From positions 1-39,602 of the IMG/VR virus record IMGVR_UViG_3300037264_002168: a stretch of 39,602 nt of DNA. One strand, 5' to 3'. The position numbers and the translations under genes were made by a program. Below the pieces are notes generated by a model, which saw nothing but the letters and a program-made list of their open reading frames with translations, made no database searches and was not told the origin of the DNA. This document shows, piece by piece, positions 178 to 39,602 of this stretch. Numbering within the stretch: position 1 is the stretch's first letter; every line of letters starts with the position of its first letter. The DNA comes from a virus.

Positions 178-974
178 TCTATGATTCATCTCACGCTCTC
201 TCTGCTGGAAGTTATGGAGTAACGGTTGGTGACGGAGGGACTTGTTCTGTTGCAAATGTTAGAGGAAACAATGGAGCAGATAGCGTTTTTGACACAATTA
301 CTGCAAAAGGCGGAGGTGGCGGAGGAGGTGCTAGTTCAGATACAAATACTGGTTCACAAGGTGGTTCAGGTGGTGGTTGTGGATATGTATTAGCAGCTTC
401 AGGAGGAGCAAGTGATAGTGGTACTGCAAATGGTGGTACTTTTTATGGAAATGCAGGAGGAGATTCACTTGCAGGTAAATGCGGAAGTGGTGGAGGAGGA
501 GCAAATGAAGTAGGAGGTTCAGCCCCAGATAATGCGTATGGTGGAGTAGGAGGAGATGGATTACCCTATGATATAGTTTTAGACGGAACAAATGTCTATT
601 ACGCAGGCGGAGGTGGCGGAGGAGGATATTTAGAAAATGGAGGAACTGGAGGAGCAGGAGGAGATGGAGGGGGAGGAAGTGGAAGCGCAACAACCACAGG
701 AAATGCGGGAACAGCTAATACGGGAGGGGGAGGCGGTGGAAGCGGAACATCAAGTCCTTATCCTACTGTCGCAGGAGGAAAAGGCGGTTCAGGCATTGTT
801 ATCATTCGTTACCTAACTTCAGACTTTGGTACTTGTACTGGAGGAACGAAAACAACTGATGGAGATTATACTGTTCATAAGTTTGTATTAGCGGATAGTG
901 GGACGAATTTTGTATGTGTTGCGGCAACGGGTGGCGCACCTTGGGAACTTATGATGATAGGAGTAGGGAGATGA
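81..974 (+). CDS. Glycine-rich tail fibre/adhesin-like protein
   Basis: The 297-residue protein begins with a short beta segment (LVVAGGGGGGG) followed by many glycine runs, then a GGKGGSGIVIIRY-type segment near residue 245. This arrangement is typical of the glycine-rich domain family found in phage tail and surface proteins. A non-glycine C-terminal domain of about 50 residues follows and may carry specificity. A GATGAGG site sits 8-14 nt before the ATG. It lies between tail gene 37753-39309 (across the circular join) and the adaptor-like gene at 987. A receptor-binding or particle-surface role is inferred from composition and context. Its TGA stop forms part of the next promoter. Confidence 0.7.
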   Translation: MALYVKYLVVAGGGGGGGNSGNWGGGGGAGGLVYDSSHALSAGSYGVTVGDGGTCSVANVRGNNGADSVFDTITAKGGGGGGGASSDTNTGSQGGSGGGCGYVLAASGGASDSGTANGGTFYGNAGGDSLAGKCGSGGGGANEVGGSAPDNAYGGVGGDGLPYDIVLDGTNVYYAGGGGGGGYLENGGTGGAGGDGGGGSGSATTTGNAGTANTGGGGGGSGTSSPYPTVAGGKGGSGIVIIRYLTSDFGTCTGGTKTTDGDYTVHKFVLADSGTNFVCVAATGGAPWELMMIGVGR

Positions 975-986
975 TATAATAAATAT
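972..986 (+). promoter_or_regulatory. Extended -10 promoter, leaderless type
   Basis: TGATATAAT (972-980) is a perfect extended -10. Six bases (981-986) separate it from the ATG at 987, so the start site should be the A of the ATG. The TGA is also the stop codon of the upstream gene. No good -35 is visible. Confidence 0.75.
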
Positions 987-1964: not shown

Positions 1965-1976
1965 TATAATAAAGAA
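1965..1976 (+). promoter_or_regulatory. -10 promoter before HNH gene
   Basis: TATAAT at 1965-1970 lies exactly 6 nt before the ATG at 1977. Unlike its siblings it lacks the TG of an extended -10. Confidence 0.6.
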
Positions 1977-2450
1977 ATGATCTCCAATTGTGTAATTTGT
2001 GGAAAATTTTTTACATGGAATATAACTCGTAAAGATTTTGAGAGAAAAACTTGTTCAAAAGAATGTCGATATAAATCTTGTAAAATAACTTGGACAAAAA
2101 ATAAGCCAAAAAAAAATAGAATATGTTGTAGATGTGGCAAAATTTTTTATATTCCTTTAGCTTGGTTAAAAAAATCTGGAAATAGAGGAATTTATTGTTC
2201 TCGCAGTTGTAGATGGAAACCTATATATCAATGTACTCCCAAAGAAAAAAACAAATCTAGAAACAAATTGGCTAGAATGATTAAGACAGGAAAGATTAAA
2301 AGACAAATATGTGAAGTTTGTGGAAATCTCAAATCACAAGCTCATCATTATTTGGGTTATAAATTAAAAAATTATTATAAAGTTAAATGGTTATGTAATC
2401 TTCATCATGATTTAGAAGAAGAAAAAATAAGGAGAAATTCAATGATATAA
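1977..2450 (+). CDS. HNH homing endonuclease (free-standing), zinc-finger type
   Basis: The protein has 157 residues with several Cys pairs: CVIC near residue 5, CSKEC near 26, and CCRCG and CSRSC further on. It ends in an HNH nuclease segment (CEVCG...AHH...LCNLHH). The DNA is richer in A than its neighbours. I chose ATG 1977 over an upstream TTG at 1959 because a TATAAT lies 6 nt before it. No intron boundaries are visible, so this looks like a free-standing homing endonuclease wedged between two virion genes. Such enzymes cut alleles lacking the gene and so spread it. Its stop codon lies inside the promoter of the next gene. Confidence 0.8.
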   Translation: MISNCVICGKFFTWNITRKDFERKTCSKECRYKSCKITWTKNKPKKNRICCRCGKIFYIPLAWLKKSGNRGIYCSRSCRWKPIYQCTPKEKNKSRNKLARMIKTGKIKRQICEVCGNLKSQAHHYLGYKLKNYYKVKWLCNLHHDLEEEKIRRNSMI

Positions 2451-2457
2451 TATATAT
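2443..2457 (+). promoter_or_regulatory. Extended -10 promoter, leaderless type
   Basis: TGATATAAT at 2443-2451, then six bases, then ATG 2458. It overlaps the TAA stop of the HNH gene. Confidence 0.75.
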
Positions 2458-3926: not shown

Positions 3927-3941
3927 TGATATACTGGATGG
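3927..3941 (+). promoter_or_regulatory. Extended -10 promoter before HNH gene
   Basis: TGATATACT (3927-3935), then six bases, then ATG 3942. It has the same geometry as the virion-gene promoters, with one -10 mismatch. Confidence 0.6.
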
Positions 3942-5604: not shown

Positions 5605-5660
5605 TGATATAATAGACTAAGAGGAGAATACCTCACCCATTGTGGTGAGATTTTTTATAT
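5605..5660 (+). promoter_or_regulatory. Composite leader A: promoter, GAGG element, terminator-like hairpin, ATG
   Basis: An extended -10 (TGATATAAT, 5605-5613) is followed by GAGGAG (5621-5626), then a hairpin CTCACC/GGTGAG (5632-5637 with 5644-5649) and six T's (5651-5656), four bases before ATG 5661. GAGG can also pair with CCTC (5631-5634), so anti-terminator-like and terminator-like folds exclude each other. Three more leaders of this design occur at 9277, 31794 and 37701. Confidence 0.75.
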
Positions 5661-8260: not shown

Positions 8261-9217
8261 TCATATAAATAATCCCACGGCAAGTAAGAGATTCCTCGTT
8301 ATTAAAATCCACGGAAACGGTAAAATTCTATCAACAACTGTTTGAGTATATAATCCTAGATACCAGAGAGTAAGAATGGATGCTCCAATAATTATCCACT
8401 GTGTCCGTTTAGACACAAACGCTATCAATGGAGCAATCCATATCAGGTATTGAGGAGAAAGAACTTTATTCGCTACGATAAATGATAAAATCATGTAAAA
8501 ACTGGAAGCGAAGACTGATTTTTGTCGTATAGCTCGAAAGAACCCAAACGCTAGTATTCCTATGGGAAACCATAGCGGAAGTTGAATATCTTTATATTCC
8601 TGCGCATTATGTCCATATACTATTTCAGTTTTAGGATTTTTCAGATAGATTAAAGTTCCATATATACTCTCCGGTTGAACTGGACGTTCTTTATGAAACT
8701 CTATACTAAATGGATTAGAAAAAATGAGGATCATTGAAAGAATACCGGATAGTATAAATGGGATCAGTTTTGTTCTGTCTTTCAATAACCGTAATCCGAA
8801 TATCGGAAACAAAATCAAAGGGTATATTTTCGTTGCTGATGCTAGACATAAAAAGATCGCGCTAAAACCATACTTTTTCTTATGGAATAAGAGTATGGAA
8901 ACAAATGTCAGGAGAGCGACATAGACATCCAAAAGCTCAATCAGTAACCCGAACAATGATAAAAATATAGCAAGGAATGGCAACGGAGAAAGTTTTAGAA
9001 CTTTTTTAAGAAGAAGTGCAATAATACCGGCAAATCCTATCATCTCTATGTGAAATAAAAGGGCATAGATGGGATACGAATCAGTTAATAGCCGAGGTAA
9101 AAGCATTGGCAAGAATGCCAACGTAGGATACTCAAAAGTAAATGGTTGTCCTGCGACGAATGCAGAAGCCCATTGCCAGTAGTGGTAAACATCCCATATT
9201 TTTATAAAGTCGTACAT
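8261..9217 (-). CDS. Polytopic membrane glycosyltransferase, GT-C/GT87 (DUF2029)-like
   Basis: The 318-residue protein is strongly hydrophobic with roughly eight membrane segments. Early motifs include DVYHYWQWA and FEYPTLAFLP, a central ASATKIYPLILFP signature, and SPQYLIWIAP near the end. This order matches DUF2029/GT87-type mannosyl- or arabinosyl-transferases that use lipid-linked sugars on the outer face of the membrane. Start 9217 was chosen because a TTGACA-17-TACATT promoter ends 9 nt upstream; longer readings would include that promoter. It is the only minus-strand gene, is flanked by virion genes, and has its own promoter. It is probably an accessory gene that alters the host surface, for example to block superinfection. 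Confidence 0.7.
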   Translation of the reverse strand: MYDFIKIWDVYHYWQWASAFVAGQPFTFEYPTLAFLPMLLPRLLTDSYPIYALLFHIEMIGFAGIIALLLKKVLKLSPLPFLAIFLSLFGLLIELLDVYVALLTFVSILLFHKKKYGFSAIFLCLASATKIYPLILFPIFGLRLLKDRTKLIPFILSGILSMILIFSNPFSIEFHKERPVQPESIYGTLIYLKNPKTEIVYGHNAQEYKDIQLPLWFPIGILAFGFFRAIRQKSVFASSFYMILSFIVANKVLSPQYLIWIAPLIAFVSKRTQWIIIGASILTLWYLGLYTQTVVDRILPFPWILITRNLLLAVGLFI

Positions 9218-9255
9218 AGGAAGATGAATGTAACACATTGTAAACTCTTTGTCAA
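9218..9255 (-). promoter_or_regulatory. TTGACA/TACATT promoter of glycosyltransferase gene
   Basis: On the minus strand TTGACA (9255-9250), a 17-bp spacer, TACATT (9232-9227), then 9 nt to ATG. Twenty-two bases (CTACTTGACAAAGAGTTTAC plus AA) are identical to the promoter at 17637, beyond what RNA polymerase needs. Confidence 0.75.
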
Positions 9256-9276: not shown

Positions 9277-9331
9277 TGATATAATAAAAGGAAGAGGAGA
9301 ATACCTCGCCAACGGCGGGGATTTTTGTTAT
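9277..9331 (+). promoter_or_regulatory. Composite leader B: promoter, GAGG element, hairpin, ATG
   Basis: TGATATAAT (9277-9285), GAGGAG (9294-9299), then hairpin CCTCGCC/GGCGGGG (9304-9310 with 9314-9320, three-base loop) and five T's (9322-9326), ending 5 nt before ATG 9332. CCTC can pair instead with the upstream GAGG. It is divergent from the minus-strand promoter. Confidence 0.75.
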
Positions 9332-12603: not shown

Positions 12604-12629
12604 TGATATAATAATATATAGAGGAGAAT
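12604..12629 (+). promoter_or_regulatory. Extended -10 promoter with ordinary leader and Shine-Dalgarno
   Basis: TGATATAAT (12604-12612), then GAGGAG (12621-12626) three bases before ATG 12630. This is the only extended -10 promoter here whose GAGGAG directly serves a start codon. The composite leaders look like this one with ACC and a hairpin in place of the ATG. Confidence 0.75.
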
Positions 12630-15143: not shown

Positions 15144-15178
15144 TTGACAAACAGTTTACAAAGGTTTATGATAAAAAT
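15144..15178 (+). promoter_or_regulatory. TTGACA/TATGAT promoter, leaderless type
   Basis: TTGACA (15144-15149), 17-bp spacer, TATGAT (15167-15172), six bases, ATG 15179. CTACTTGACAAACAGTTTAC differs at one base from the promoters at 17637 and 9255(-), suggesting a shared operator. Confidence 0.85.
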
Positions 15179-15430
15179 ATGAATGAACCAAACCGTTTCC
15201 TTTTTTCAATAGAAGTATATGATAACAAGACGAAAAAGAAAATTGCCTATGATTCCGGCAATTGTTCCGAAATAACCTATGCGAAAAAAGTCCTGAATGA
15301 GGCAATTGAGGCACTTGATAAATTTGAACTTCGGGAGCTAGATATGTGTCCTGAATGTGCAACGCCACTTCGGGAAGATGAAAACGGGAAAATGATAACG
15401 TGTGACGGATGCGGATATTTAGAGTCTTGA
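15179..15430 (+). CDS. Small protein with C-terminal zinc ribbon
   Basis: Start 15179 is set by the promoter, whose -10 ends 6 nt upstream. The 83-residue protein has a beta-alpha N-terminal part (FLFSIEVYDNKTKKKIAYDSG). A CPEC...CDGCG zinc ribbon occupies residues 57-79. It may bind nucleic acid. A promoter for the next gene starts inside its last codons. Confidence 0.65.
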   Translation: MNEPNRFLFSIEVYDNKTKKKIAYDSGNCSEITYAKKVLNEAIEALDKFELRELDMCPECATPLREDENGKMITCDGCGYLES

Positions 15431-15463
15431 CAAATACTTGATAAAGATTTAGAATAAGAATAT
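15427..15463 (+). promoter_or_regulatory. TTGACA/TAGAAT promoter
   Basis: TTGACA (15427-15432) overlaps the stop of the upstream gene. A 17-bp spacer, TAGAAT (15450-15455) and 8 nt lead to ATG 15464. Confidence 0.8.
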
Positions 15464-15652
15464 ATGGAAATAAAATATCAACATCAAAAGCTCCGGCAGA
15501 AACGTAATCATGATATATGGGTTCGCATGGCAACGGATTATAACGGAGGCATGACCGTAGAGGAAATCCGCGAACGGTATAAAAAGCTGGATGGGAAAAA
15601 ATATACCCGCACATGGATTTACATGATATTCAAAAAACTTATAAACGAATAA
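15464..15652 (+). CDS. Small helix-turn-helix protein, putative regulator
   Basis: The 62-residue basic protein has a likely helix-turn-helix in residues 25-58 (MTVEEIRERYKKLDGKKYTRTWIY). It has its own promoter. It may be a repressor or activator of early promoters that share the extended TTGACA region, but that is inference. Confidence 0.55.
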   Translation: MEIKYQHQKLRQKRNHDIWVRMATDYNGGMTVEEIRERYKKLDGKKYTRTWIYMIFKKLINE

Positions 15653-17636: not shown

Positions 17637-17673
17637 TTGACAAAGAGTTTACAACCATTTATACCTAGACTAT
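17637..17673 (+). promoter_or_regulatory. TTGACA/TATACC promoter
   Basis: TTGACA (17637-17642), 17-bp spacer, TATACC (17660-17665), 8 nt, ATG 17674. The upstream half is identical over 22 bases to the glycosyltransferase promoter at 9255(-). Confidence 0.8.
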
Positions 17674-19123: not shown

Positions 19124-20320
19124 ATGCAAGTAAATACAGAAGGAAATATACCAGTTAAATTATGGCTTGATGATATTGAAGATAATGCGATGGAACAAGT
19201 AAAACATCTATCTATACTTCCATTTGCATATCATCATATTGCCATCATGTCTGATGCTCATCAAGGATATGGTATGCCTATTGGTGGAGTTTTAGCTACT
19301 ACTGATGTGGTAATTCCCAATGCAGTAGGTGTGGATATTGGGTGTGGTATGTGTGCGGTTAAAACTTCACTGACTGAACTTCCAGTAGAAAGATTAAAGG
19401 AAATCATGGGTAAAATTAGACAAACTATCCCTGTTGGGTTTGCTCATCATAAAGACAGACAAGATATGAAGTTAATGCCAGAATTGGATAGAGAAAAAAA
19501 TTATATAACAGACGCATTCAACCATGGTTCTGGAATTGTATCAAGAGAATATGATAAGGCATTGTATCAAATAGGTACTCTTGGTGGAGGAAATCATTTT
19601 ATTGAAATCCAAAAAGGGTCAGATGGTCATATTTGGATAATGATACATTCAGGTTCTCGGAACTTTGGATTGCAAATTGCAGATTATTACAATAAAAAGG
19701 CAGTTGAATTAAACGAAAAATGGCACTCAAAAATTCCAGAAGAATGGGAGTTAGCATTTTTACCAATAGATAGCGATGAAGGGCAAGCATATATCAAGGA
19801 AATGCAATACTGTGTAGAGTTTGCTTTGGCAAATAGAAAATTAATGATGGAACGAATTGCTGATATTTTTGACAAAAATACTTCCGCTCCATTTATTGAT
19901 ATGAATGAAATGATAAATATTGCTCATAACTATGCTTCCCTAGAACATCACTTTGGAAAAGATGTATGGGTTCACAGGAAAGGAGCAACTCTGGCACAAG
20001 TAGATACCATAGGCATTATTCCTGGGTCGCAGGGAACACATAGTTATATTGTAAAAGGAAAAGGCAATCCAGACAGTTTTGAATCCTGTTCTCATGGTGC
20101 TGGTCGGAAAATGGGAAGGAAACAAGCACAACGGACATTAAACCTTGAAGAAGAAAAAAAACGACTGGATGATTTAGGGATTGTGCATGCGATACGGGGA
20201 GTACAGGATTTAGATGAAGCACCAGGGTCGTATAAAGATATTGATATAGTAATGAAAAACCAACAGGATTTAGTAGATGTTCTCGTTGAATTGACACCAA
20301 TGGGAGTTATAAAAGGATAA
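19124..20320 (+). CDS. rtcB: RNA ligase RtcB
   Basis: The 398-residue protein joins RNA ends bearing 2',3'-cyclic or 3'-phosphate to 5'-OH ends with GTP and Mn2+. Family signatures are present: SDAHQGYGMPIGG near 43, VDIGCGM with D71 and C74, GGGNHFIE 154-161, HSGSRN 175-180, HRKGAT 284-289, and SHGAGR with the guanylylated His at 324. The length matches cellular RtcB. ATG 19124 was chosen for the GAGGAGAAGAGG site; earlier starts lie in the structured leader. In phages RtcB is thought to repair tRNAs cut by host anticodon nucleases. The abnormal tRNA-like element in this genome makes that context interesting. Confidence 0.93.
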   Translation: MQVNTEGNIPVKLWLDDIEDNAMEQVKHLSILPFAYHHIAIMSDAHQGYGMPIGGVLATTDVVIPNAVGVDIGCGMCAVKTSLTELPVERLKEIMGKIRQTIPVGFAHHKDRQDMKLMPELDREKNYITDAFNHGSGIVSREYDKALYQIGTLGGGNHFIEIQKGSDGHIWIMIHSGSRNFGLQIADYYNKKAVELNEKWHSKIPEEWELAFLPIDSDEGQAYIKEMQYCVEFALANRKLMMERIADIFDKNTSAPFIDMNEMINIAHNYASLEHHFGKDVWVHRKGATLAQVDTIGIIPGSQGTHSYIVKGKGNPDSFESCSHGAGRKMGRKQAQRTLNLEEEKKRLDDLGIVHAIRGVQDLDEAPGSYKDIDIVMKNQQDLVDVLVELTPMGVIKG

Positions 20321-22592: not shown

Positions 22593-22628
22593 TTGACAAG
22601 AATTATAATATATTTATATAATTAAATT
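22593..22628 (+). promoter_or_regulatory. TTGACA/TATAAT promoter of chaperonin operon
   Basis: TTGACA (22593-22598), 18-bp spacer, TATAAT (22617-22622), six bases, ATG 22629. The predicted transcript is leaderless. Both hexamers are perfect consensus. Confidence 0.85.
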
Positions 22629-22928: not shown

Positions 22929-23119
22929 AATCTATTGCTATTGTCTGTTGTTGGCGCTGTAAAAATAAGAAAAGTCAATTATTCCGTTGTGTTGATAAGG
23001 AAGGAAGTATGACTGATGATTATATATGTAAAGACTGCAAAGATTATTCTGGATTGAAAGCACCAGAGATAGGAAATCAGTCAAGAATATATTTCAAAAA
23101 GGAGACCCATGACAAATAA
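22925..23119 (+). CDS. Small zinc-ribbon protein between groES and groEL
   Basis: The 64-residue protein has CCWRC (residues 8-12) and CKDC (about 35-38), a zinc ribbon. It overlaps groES by ATGA and groEL by 11 nt, so all three are translationally coupled. The overlap suggests a chaperonin-linked task, but nothing in the sequence identifies it. Confidence 0.65.
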   Translation: MKSIAIVCCWRCKNKKSQLFRCVDKEGSMTDDYICKDCKDYSGLKAPEIGNQSRIYFKKETHDK

Positions 23120-24692
23120 ATACTCTCTCACAAAATTCAACGAACAAGCGCGAAAATCCCTTCTTGATGGCGCAAAAGAAGTTTATACTGCCGTTTCCAC
23201 TACTCTTGGAGCGCGGGGAAGAAATATCACTATTCATAATCATTATCAGACAAAATCAATTCACGACGGAGTTAAAGTTTCCCAGTCTATCAATCCAAAA
23301 GACGACTTTGAAAATGCCGGTGCTGAAATGTTGAAAGAGTCAGCGCAACGACAAGTTTCTGTCGCCGGTGATGGTACAACGCTTGCTATTATCTTAGGTT
23401 ATGCAATCGCCTCAGAAGCGGAAAAAATGGTCAATGCCGGTGTCAACCCTATGGCACTTCGGGCAGGACTTGAAAAAGGATGCGATCTTCTTGTTAAAGA
23501 GATTAAAAAACTTTCCACACCTGTTACTTCTAAGGAACAAAAAGTACAGATCGCTACTATCGCCAGTCAAAATAAGGAATTAGGTGAACTTATAGGCGAC
23601 ACTCTTCATAGGGCAGGAGTTGAAGGAGTCATTACTATTGAGGAAGCAATCGGATCAGAAACCTTTGTCGAACATAAAGAAGGAGTACAAATAGATTCAG
23701 GATTTAAGACGGATTATTTTATTACCAACCCTCACTCAATGACCGCGACGGTTTCAAAAGCGAAAATACTTGTCACTGATTATAAACTCAATGACATTCA
23801 TGAACTTGTGCCATTATTCAAAAACGTCATTGAAACAAACGGGGTACATAATATCGTCATTATCTCCGAAGACATAGAAGGGACAGTATTGGCGACCTTG
23901 GCTCAAAACAAAATTCAGGGGAAACTCAACACATTGGCTATCAAAGCCCCTACATTCCAACAGGAACAGGTCTTGCGTGATATTGCCACAATTGTCGGAG
24001 CTAAATTTATCTCCCAAGAGATGACGATAGATTTGAAGGAATTGACCATTGATGACCTGGGCTATGCAGACCAAGTTACCTCATCCCGCACCGCTACGGT
24101 CATCGTAGGGGGTGGAGGAAAGGATACCGCAGTCAAGGAGAGGATCGACTCAATCAAATCACAGCTAGAAGAAGAGGAAAACGAATTTAACAAACAAAAG
24201 TTACGAGAACGGTTAGCGAAACTTACTGGCGGGGTCTATGTCGTCTATGTCGGCGGGCAGACCGAGGTTGAAATGGTAGACCGAAAAGAGAGAATAGATG
24301 ATGCAATCCAAGCCACCCGCGCGGCAATGAAAGAAGGCATTATCCCTGGCGGTGAGATTGTCTTTTTAGGGATTGATAAAGTGTTAAAACCCAAGAATGA
24401 CGATGAAGATTATGCGTTTCGGATATTGAAGAATGCACTCAAAAAACCATTTGAAAAGTTAGTTGAAAACGCTGGATTTAATGCCGGACAATTACAAGAA
24501 CGATTATCAAAAGAACTTAAAGGAATGGGTATTGATGTTACCACAGGGGAAATAGTCAACATGGTAGAAAAAGGTATTATTGACCCTACTCTTGTCGCAA
24601 CCGAGGCGATTAGAAATGGAGTGAGTGTAGCAATCTCAATCATTTTGAGTGGCGGGACAGTATGTGAGATTGAAGAAGAAAAAGGAAAATAA
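23109..24692 (+). CDS. groEL: Chaperonin GroEL
   Basis: The 527-residue protein covers the full Cpn60 architecture. Equatorial motifs are TTLGARGRNI and AGDGTT with the catalytic Asp near 88; the apical domain spans about 190-375; RIDDAIQATRAAMKEG carries the second catalytic Asp. The C-terminal DPTLVATEAIRNGVSVA segment ends at EEEKGK without the Gly-Gly-Met tail of bacterial GroEL. The loop after GRN reads HNHYQTKSIHDG rather than the usual ...TITKDG. It is probably an active folding chamber specialised for phage proteins. GGAGACC lies before ATG 23109. Confidence 0.93.
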   Translation: MTNKYSLTKFNEQARKSLLDGAKEVYTAVSTTLGARGRNITIHNHYQTKSIHDGVKVSQSINPKDDFENAGAEMLKESAQRQVSVAGDGTTLAIILGYAIASEAEKMVNAGVNPMALRAGLEKGCDLLVKEIKKLSTPVTSKEQKVQIATIASQNKELGELIGDTLHRAGVEGVITIEEAIGSETFVEHKEGVQIDSGFKTDYFITNPHSMTATVSKAKILVTDYKLNDIHELVPLFKNVIETNGVHNIVIISEDIEGTVLATLAQNKIQGKLNTLAIKAPTFQQEQVLRDIATIVGAKFISQEMTIDLKELTIDDLGYADQVTSSRTATVIVGGGGKDTAVKERIDSIKSQLEEEENEFNKQKLRERLAKLTGGVYVVYVGGQTEVEMVDRKERIDDAIQATRAAMKEGIIPGGEIVFLGIDKVLKPKNDDEDYAFRILKNALKKPFEKLVENAGFNAGQLQERLSKELKGMGIDVTTGEIVNMVEKGIIDPTLVATEAIRNGVSVAISIILSGGTVCEIEEEKGK

Positions 24693-25955: not shown

Positions 25956-25970
25956 TGTTATAATAAAGTA
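25956..25970 (+). promoter_or_regulatory. Extended -10 promoter of terS
   Basis: TGTTATAAT (25956-25964), six bases, ATG 25971. A CACG/CGTG dyad overlaps its upstream edge and could be an operator. Confidence 0.75.
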
Positions 25971-28252: not shown

Positions 28253-28268
28253 TGGTATAATAGAAGTA
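28253..28268 (+). promoter_or_regulatory. Extended -10 promoter
   Basis: TGGTATAAT (28253-28261), seven bases, ATG 28269. It begins one base after the terL stop. Confidence 0.7.
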
Positions 28269-28676
28269 ATGGCAAAACCTGAACCTGGACAAAAAAAAGT
28301 TGAAACAATTTGGTTAGATGCTGAAATTTCTACTAATGGAGAACCAAAAACTAAACTTTTTCGTTGTCCTAATTGTGGTCTTCCTATTGTTGAATATACT
28401 GGAGAAATAGTAAGAATAATACCAGGATTACATTTATATAATCCATCAATAATTATTAAATGTAAGGGATCAGTACCAGTAAACATAAAATATAAAGAGT
28501 ATTTTATTGTAAAATCTTTACAAGAAAAGGGAATAATGCAAAAAGAAGATTTATCACAACTATCAAAACAGGCAGCAACTTATTCATCTGATGAAGATAT
28601 AGATAGGTGGGAAGAATGTGGATGTTATTATTCATTTGTAGCAAGTGTTTACACAGAAAATTCACAATCAACATAA
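28269..28676 (+). CDS. Zinc-ribbon hypothetical protein between terminase and portal
   Basis: The 135-residue protein has CPNCG (residues 33-37) in a beta context and a later pair of Cys (CGCYYS near 118). The N-terminal half may be a zinc ribbon, and the rest is mixed. The DNA is AT-richer than terL and portal, as for the HNH cassettes, which hints at later acquisition. No nuclease motif is seen. Function unknown. Confidence 0.6.
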   Translation: MAKPEPGQKKVETIWLDAEISTNGEPKTKLFRCPNCGLPIVEYTGEIVRIIPGLHLYNPSIIIKCKGSVPVNIKYKEYFIVKSLQEKGIMQKEDLSQLSKQAATYSSDEDIDRWEECGCYYSFVASVYTENSQST

Positions 28677-30708: not shown

Positions 30709-30723
30709 TATAATAAAAACAAT
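30706..30723 (+). promoter_or_regulatory. Extended -10 promoter overlapping portal stop
   Basis: TGATATAAT (30706-30714), nine bases, ATG 30724. The TGA ends the portal gene. The 18 bases around it nearly match those at 964-985. Confidence 0.7.
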
Positions 30724-31030: not shown

Positions 31031-31045
31031 TGATATAATATATTT
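31031..31045 (+). promoter_or_regulatory. Extended -10 promoter, leaderless type
   Basis: TGATATAAT (31031-31039), six bases, ATG 31046, the scaffold gene. Confidence 0.75.
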
Positions 31046-31793: not shown

Positions 31794-31881
31794 TTGACAC
31801 GACCTATCAATGATGTGATATAATAAAACCATAGGAGAAATAACTCCACCAAACGGTGGGGTTTTTTTATACAAAAAATAT
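31794..31881 (+). promoter_or_regulatory. Composite leader C of the major capsid gene
   Basis: TTGACA (31794-31799), 19-bp spacer, extended -10 TGATATAAT (31816-31824), GGAG (31834-31837), hairpin CTCCACC/GGTGGGG (31844-31850 with 31855-31861), seven T's (31862-31868), 13 bases, ATG 31882. GGAG can pair with CTCC instead. This is the strongest-looking promoter in the head module. Confidence 0.8.
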
Positions 31882-35238: not shown

Positions 35239-35250
35239 TATAATTAAACT
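35236..35250 (+). promoter_or_regulatory. Extended -10 promoter overlapping upstream stop
   Basis: TGATATAAT (35236-35244), six bases, ATG 35251. Its TGA ends the upstream gene. Confidence 0.75.
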
Positions 35251-35805: not shown

Positions 35806-35820
35806 TGATATAATAAATTC
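35806..35820 (+). promoter_or_regulatory. Extended -10 promoter, leaderless type
   Basis: TGATATAAT (35806-35814), six bases, ATG 35821. Confidence 0.75.
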
Positions 35821-37703: not shown

Positions 37704-37752
37704 TATAATATAACTATGAGGAGTATACCTCGCTGAAAAGTGAGGTTTTTTT
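37701..37752 (+). promoter_or_regulatory. Composite leader D: promoter, GAGG element, hairpin, ATG
   Basis: TGATATAAT (37701-37709) reuses the upstream stop. GAGGAG (37718-37723), hairpin CCTCGCT/AGTGAGG (37728-37734 with 37739-37745, GAAA loop) and seven T's (37746-37752) lead directly to ATG 37753 with no gap. GAGG can pair with CCTC instead. Confidence 0.8.
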
Positions 37753-39309: not shown

Positions 39310-39503
39310 TGAAATTGATATGTATGAAAGACTCTCTCACCAAACTCATTATAGACCGTAAAGACTTCTCTTATATTAAAGGACCATCAAGCCTAAAGTT
39401 CAATCTTCGTATTGATAATTCTTCAGAATTAAAACCATTTAAATCCTGTTTAGAAGAAGCAATAAAAGATATAGATGAAATTTTGAAAGGGATGAGGAAT
39501 TAA
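39309..39503 (+). CDS. Small helical hypothetical protein
   Basis: The 64-residue protein (MKLICMKDSLTKLIIDRKDF...) is chosen to start at ATG 39309, which overlaps the upstream TAA. Earlier starts lie inside the previous gene. It has a short beta start and a helical acidic C-terminus (SCLEEAIKDIDEILKGM). It sits between two tail genes and shares their operon. Function unknown. Confidence 0.6.
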   Translation: MKLICMKDSLTKLIIDRKDFSYIKGPSSLKFNLRIDNSSELKPFKSCLEEAIKDIDEILKGMRN

Positions 39504-39602
39504 ATATGGCACTTTATGTAAAATATCTCGTTGTAGCTGGAGGAGGAGGGGGGGGTGGAAATAGTGGTAACTGGGGAGGTGGTGGTGGAGCAGGTGGACT
39601 TG
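39426..39602. repeat. Contig-end direct repeat (right copy)
   Basis: This copy of 1-177 has G at 39553 where the left copy has A at 128. It joins the two ends of the circular genome. Confidence 0.9.
39506..39602 (+). CDS. N-terminal fragment of glycine-rich protein (complete copy at 81-974)
   Basis: The start of the glycine-rich fibre gene reappears here and runs off the window end. It is the same gene as 81-974, with one synonymous difference. Confidence 0.85.
   Translation, partial: MALYVKYLVVAGGGGGGGNSGNWGGGGGAGGL

Follow-up and report, generated by a model that had tools for sequence, protein, structure and literature searches.

In Deinococcus radiodurans about one third of genes carry a -10 motif about 6-7 bp before the open reading frame (PMC12340547; for a wider survey see Zheng et al., 2011, PMC3160421), and in the Thermus phage phiYS40 most middle and late mRNA is leaderless, with changes in IF2/IF3 reported (review PMC3594737). 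This grammar, a -10 box adjacent to the start codon, is already known from Deinococcus-Thermus and Actinobacteria. The window analysed here is the whole stretch of virus contig IMGVR_UViG_3300037264_002168 (39,602 bases, G+C 38%). It resembles Deinococcus-Thermus in having genes that lack a Shine-Dalgarno (SD) sequence and carry a -10 box some 6-7 bp ahead of the start codon, beside genes that are SD-led. It differs in that the box is an almost perfect TATAAT preceded by TGN, in place of TANNNT, and in belonging to phages whose kin point to Patescibacteria. Like phiYS40, the window phage is a tailed phage with many leaderless mRNAs (predicted in our case); unlike it, phiYS40 has no TATAAT peak at 6 nt in its first 45 kb, and no kinship between the two surfaced in the searches made. 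Keyword searches of open-licence papers on leaderless, promoter or SD usage in Patescibacteria found no study that reports leaderless initiation there.

The late region of phage lambda offers a second comparison. At lambda pR'-tR', with Q antitermination, a late promoter is followed by a short untranslated leader, a terminator and then the structural genes, and leaders in the window show the same succession. The clade of the window differs from lambda in having up to five such operons per contig and a covarying hairpin, one strand of which is also part of the terminator; lambda has Q, whereas no antiterminator protein was identified for the window leaders.

The explanation that we favour, and consider highly probable as a whole, combines leaderless extended -10 promoters, SD sites at operon genes and a third set of genes led by an attenuator. 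RNA polymerase would recognise promoters of the extended -10 type (TGN-TATAAT), most of which lack a -35 box, with TTGACA at 17-18 nt in a few early ones. It would start at the A of the ATG or no more than one or two nucleotides away, and the leaderless mRNAs would be expressed by the RNA polymerase and ribosomes of the host. Genes internal to operons would use SD sites, and where genes are tightly packed the promoter TG would be supplied by the TGA that ends the preceding gene. The third set (including major capsid, portal and tail-like genes) would have the same promoters and an RNA with a 5' hairpin sharing a strand with a terminator-like hairpin before the gene. This leader would most likely act as an attenuator of late expression, in which stabilising the first hairpin would permit read-through.

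The earlier note on this DNA listed ten -10 boxes ending exactly 6 nt before an ATG, and all ten were confirmed by position (Table 1). Eight are exact TATAAT (987, 1977, 2458, 22629, 25971, 31046, 35251, 35821) and the remaining two are TATACT (3942) and TATGAT (15179). The five further boxes that it placed at 7-9 nt are also present, with TATAAT at 28269 (7 nt) and 30724 (9 nt), TAGAAT at 15464 (8 nt) and weak hexamers at 9217(-) (TACATT, 9 nt) and 17674 (TATACC, 8 nt, final T absent); some of the boxes at 7-9 nt would give a leader of 1-3 nt. No SD sequence lies between box and start at 987, 1977, 2458, 3942, 22629, 25971, 28269, 31046, 35251 and 35821. Since a -10 box usually lies 6-7 nt from the start site, this spacing would place transcription initiation at the A of the ATG and make the message leaderless.

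Table 1. Promoters, leader elements and other features located in the window and its relatives.
Feature	Position	Strand	Associated start or remark
TATAAT	975..980	+	6 nt before ATG 987; extended -10 TGN supplied by the TGA stop (972-974) of the upstream ORF
TATAAT	1965..1970	+	6 nt before ATG 1977
TGA-TATAAT	2446..2451	+	6 nt before ATG 2458
TATACT, one mismatch	3930..3935	+	6 nt before ATG 3942
TACATT with -35 TTGACA	9227..9232	-	9 nt before ATG 9217(-)
Early-region promoter TTGACA-17-TATGAT	15144..15172	+	6 nt before ATG 15179
TTGACA-17-TAGAAT	15427..15455	+	8 nt before ATG 15464
TATACC, weak box	17660..17665	+	8 nt before ATG 17674
TTGACA-18-TATAAT	22593..22622	+	6 nt before ATG 22629
TATAAT	25959..25964	+	6 nt before ATG 25971 (terminase small subunit)
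TGG-TATAAT	28256..28261	+	7 nt before ATG 28269
TATAAT	30709..30714	+	9 nt before ATG 30724; fused to TGA stop of portal gene
TGA-TATAAT	31034..31039	+	6 nt before ATG 31046
TATAAT	35239..35244	+	6 nt before ATG 35251; fused to upstream TGA stop
TGA-TATAAT	35809..35814	+	6 nt before ATG 35821
TGA-TATAAT, short leader with AGAGGAG (SD)	12607..12629	+	ATG 12630; conventional alternative
Leadered promoter TGA-TATAAT	5608..5656	+	element 5621-5656; gene ATG 5661
Leadered promoter	9280..9326	+	element 9294-9326; gene ATG 9332
Leadered promoter, major capsid gene	31819..31868	+	element 31834-31868; gene ATG 31882
Leadered promoter fused to upstream TGA stop	37704..37752	+	element 37718-37752; T-run abuts gene ATG 37753
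RtcB-like gene	19124-20320
GroEL-like gene	23109-24692
Second-half sites	window 15144, 15427, 9255(-); L018 3881, L022 2937, L023 9888, L025 7621		early promoters (window), capsid promoters (relatives)
Contigs with leader element besides the window	L018, L020-L025, L027, L028, L030-L032, L056, L058

On the + strand of the window, exact TATAAT lies 6 nt before an ATG in nine cases, 7 nt in one and 9 nt in one, with none at 0-5, 8 or 10-15 nt; the ninth 6-nt case belongs to the box at 37704, which is followed by an ATG with a frame of only six codons. Counting both strands, 9 of 49 exact TATAAT stand 5-7 nt before an ATG that opens 40 codons or more, eight of them at exactly 6 nt. When the six letters are put in the 19 other possible orders, the count is 9 of 839 (Fisher P = 7.5e-8). 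The box was found at 10 of 66 called gene starts and at none of 174 in-frame internal Met codons. The 66 starts were called mechanically, and because the motif itself played a part in choosing them, cleaner evidence comes from the permuted-hexamer test and from the relatives. The observation of the earlier note is confirmed and exceeds chance by a wide margin. The arrangement is limited to about 10-14 of the 66 called genes. When one mismatch was allowed in the box, the 6-nt peak was lost in the window, and the looser boxes listed are therefore less supported, except where a -35 TTGACA stands at 17 nt, as it does for the looser boxes at 15144, 15427 and 9255(-).

Relatives were collected via capsid-protein searches of IMG/VR (capsid identity 53-75%) and pooled into 12 non-redundant contigs, eleven from IMG/VR and one from a metagenome-assembled genome (MAG). 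In these, 46 of 187 TATAAT were 5-7 nt before an ATG, 31 of them at exactly 6, compared to 95 of 3893 permuted hexamers (P = 9e-29). Seven contigs fetched later with a different capsid query, and not used in forming the idea, served as a held-out set and gave 20/109 compared to 29/2151 (P = 7e-15). At the orthologous starts of genes 987, 28269, 30724, 31046 and 35251 the box was retained 5-7 nt from the ATG; the proteins at these starts are 30-66% identical and the upstream DNA is unlike that of the window. For gene 28269 a clear box was present at the orthologous starts of six relatives (L018, L020, L021, L023, L025, L030). This recurrence, in a related tailed-phage clade and at diverged orthologous genes, indicates that box placement is under selection. 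The exact-TATAAT peak was absent in Lactococcus phage sk1 and in the Thermus phages P23-45 and YS40 (45 kb each; for YS40 the first 45 kb), as well as in the more distant contigs L049, L005 and L006. YS40 and P23-45, taken as positive controls, gave no peak, so searching for exact TATAAT favours specificity over sensitivity.

A genome with a G+C of 38% could place TATAAT beside ATG by composition alone. This is next to impossible given that no peak appears with permuted hexamers, at internal Met codons or in the control phages, and that relative L018, with a G+C of 49%, has 6 of 11 TATAAT so placed. It is also very unlikely that these are ordinary promoters with transcripts starting further downstream, the listed ATGs being mis-called and the true starts being later SD-led codons. 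Gene calling was indeed mechanical, and the boxes of 17674 and 9217 lie at 8-9 nt with weak hexamers. However, a fixed 6-nt spacing to the ATG makes sense only if the ATG matters, several orthologues of 987, 28269, 30724 and 35251 match from their first residue, at the corresponding ATG, and SD sequences are absent at the listed starts. Leaderless mRNA is the best reading because the peak stands above chance, recurs in relatives and persists at diverged orthologous starts, and leaderless initiation at the boxed genes is well supported by sequence, the fixed spacing and the extended -10 context included.

A TGN of the extended -10 type precedes most boxes, and 27 of 62 TGN-TATAAT sites in the relatives are exactly 6 nt before an ATG. 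Early-region promoters differ in carrying TTGACA at 17-18 nt. At 972, 30706, 35236 and 37701 the TGA in TGATATAAT also serves as the stop codon of the gene upstream, and the intergenic region at these overlaps is hardly more than the promoter. Across the clade, 7 of 41 TGATATAAT sites have a TGA that terminates a frame of 100 or more codons, compared to 64 of 4386 (1.5%) for all TGA. TGN-TATAAT-N6-ATG would provide a fixed, testable promoter rule for start calling in such phages. SD-like sites were found at 25 of 66 starts compared to 17 of 174 internal Met codons, chiefly in the early block and inside operons. The proposal that genes inside operons have SD sites instead holds as a tendency, and the dual mode drawn from it in the earlier note is right in recognising leaderless and SD genes and incomplete in missing a third class with a structured leader: several structural genes have neither arrangement and are preceded instead by a conserved hairpin/terminator leader.

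In the window this leader element follows four promoters of the same type as the leaderless ones (5608, 9280, 31819, 37704). It is 33-36 nt long and starts 7-9 nt after the -10 box; its first hairpin, about 7-10 nt from the -10, stands at the predicted 5' end of the RNA. In order, the element comprises arm X of 4 nt, a loop of about 6 nt rich in A/T, arm X', a small stem-loop, arm X'' and, immediately ahead of the gene, a T-run. Only about 45 nt separate the promoter from the terminator. X' can pair either with X, in a 4-bp hairpin, or with X'', in a terminator-like hairpin. The same architecture stands ahead of the capsid gene in most relatives and also ahead of portal and tail-like genes, with up to five copies per contig and tandem copies in L028 and L031. 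In the seven later contigs the finder detected it before the capsid gene in two; in L057 and L059 it was recognised there by eye with a weaker overlap or stem, the capsid genes of L060 and L061 have a strong SD and no terminator, and L062 has no clear copy before its capsid gene.

The X:X' scores of the real elements add up to 161, compared to 22.8 (sd 10.1) in a control that kept the terminator in place and shuffled the 24 nt upstream of it. X and X' of the same element pair fully in 23 of 25 elements, compared to 32 of 548 combinations of X with the X' of another element. In a gapless alignment of 16 copies, 64 of 64 cells pair and all four pairs change on both sides, with a covariation score of 1.133 compared to 0.294 shuffled and at most 0.181 when slid. 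The finder requires pairing and the 16 copies were selected for a common loop length, and for this reason the shuffles and the later contigs matter. Arm sequences vary freely among copies while the structure is retained. When growing transcripts were folded computationally, each of the 24 elements tested passed from the X:X' hairpin to the terminator shortly before the T-run. A search of Rfam at gathering and relaxed thresholds returned no match above the gathering score of any family. A DNA operator as the cause of the inverted repeat at +1 is disfavoured, as the arms differ between copies in one genome with the pairing kept. A leader peptide was likewise rejected: an ATG 6 nt after the box occurs only at 37704, where it opens 6 codons, and is absent from the other three window copies.

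The element has mutually exclusive hairpins, one of which is by its sequence an intrinsic terminator, as an attenuator should, and we infer this function from that arrangement. The main alternative, somewhat unlikely in our judgement, is a stabilising or translation-enabling leader, in which the 5' hairpin would shield the mRNA end while the terminator-like stem and T-run would keep the start codon open for SD-less initiation. The position of the hairpin at the predicted 5' end would suit such a role, and most of these genes lack an SD whereas L060 and L061, without a capsid terminator, have a strong one. A stabiliser needs no shared 3' arm, yet almost every copy retains the overlap, and the predicted folding switches between the two hairpins. 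A quite improbable reading is that each leader is a small-RNA gene, a promoter with an RNA of about 40 nt and its own terminator, the downstream genes being read from elsewhere. The short distance from promoter to terminator and the number of copies per contig would fit, but the arm sequence is free to vary where only structure is kept, and the element closely precedes a gene, repeatedly capsid, portal or tail-like. As a putative attenuator the leader element would be a compact candidate RNA switch that is testable with purified RNA polymerase.

A terminal direct repeat (1-177 and 39426-39602; 177 bases, 99% identity, one difference in a G-run) stands at both ends of the contig, so the genome is probably complete (about 39.4 kb). 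Gene families in the window include terminase small and large subunits, portal, major capsid, baseplate-like and SU10-type adaptor proteins, as well as HNH endonucleases, an RtcB ligase and GroEL. Searches of the public phage collection with the portal and capsid proteins matched only MG269973, the TM7 (Saccharibacteria) phage DolZOral124_53_65, and MW202566, Caudoviricetes sp. cthkR962, an uncultured spring phage, at 22-28% identity, and these two were also the top two terminase matches. MW202566 is nearer than the TM7 phage for the core proteins (portal, capsid, terminase). Both resemble the window phage in size and in carrying a GroEL-like gene, but they are distant and the leader element is recognisable in neither. 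The TM7 phage has only 2-3 sites of the leaderless type (2 of 17 TATAAT qualify; P = 0.07) and MW202566, from Manatee Spring (L049), has none.

Kinship to a TM7 phage makes a host among the Patescibacteria, which are ultra-small parasitic bacteria, likely, and it is plausible that the predicted host initiates well on leaderless mRNA, as the earlier note had supposed. If the host is a Patescibacterium, the window provides sequence evidence that leaderless initiation exists in that uncultured radiation. A fuller reading, quite possible and put forward tentatively, is that these are probable Patescibacteria phages in which one promoter type yields both leaderless messages and messages with an undescribed RNA switch serving as a late-gene attenuator. 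One scan of genome contigs gave as its sole match the phage contig L027 (JAIQGC010000145.1), inside a Terriglobia MAG of 4 Mb. Terriglobia were rejected as host and the bin assignment is probably wrong, as 4 of the 15 motif matches in the MAG are concentrated in this one 22.8-kb phage contig and the others are scattered. GroEL is common to the window phage, the TM7 phage, the Manatee Spring phage and several relatives. It was set aside as a host marker, its nearest public matches (about 38% identity) being phages of several unrelated hosts, and a GroEL-based viral scan found no relative.

A second half resembling TTGACA or TTTACA was observed about 10-13 nt after the -35 box at some promoters (e.g., TTGACAAACAGTTTACAA; Table 1), and this is possibly a regulator site.
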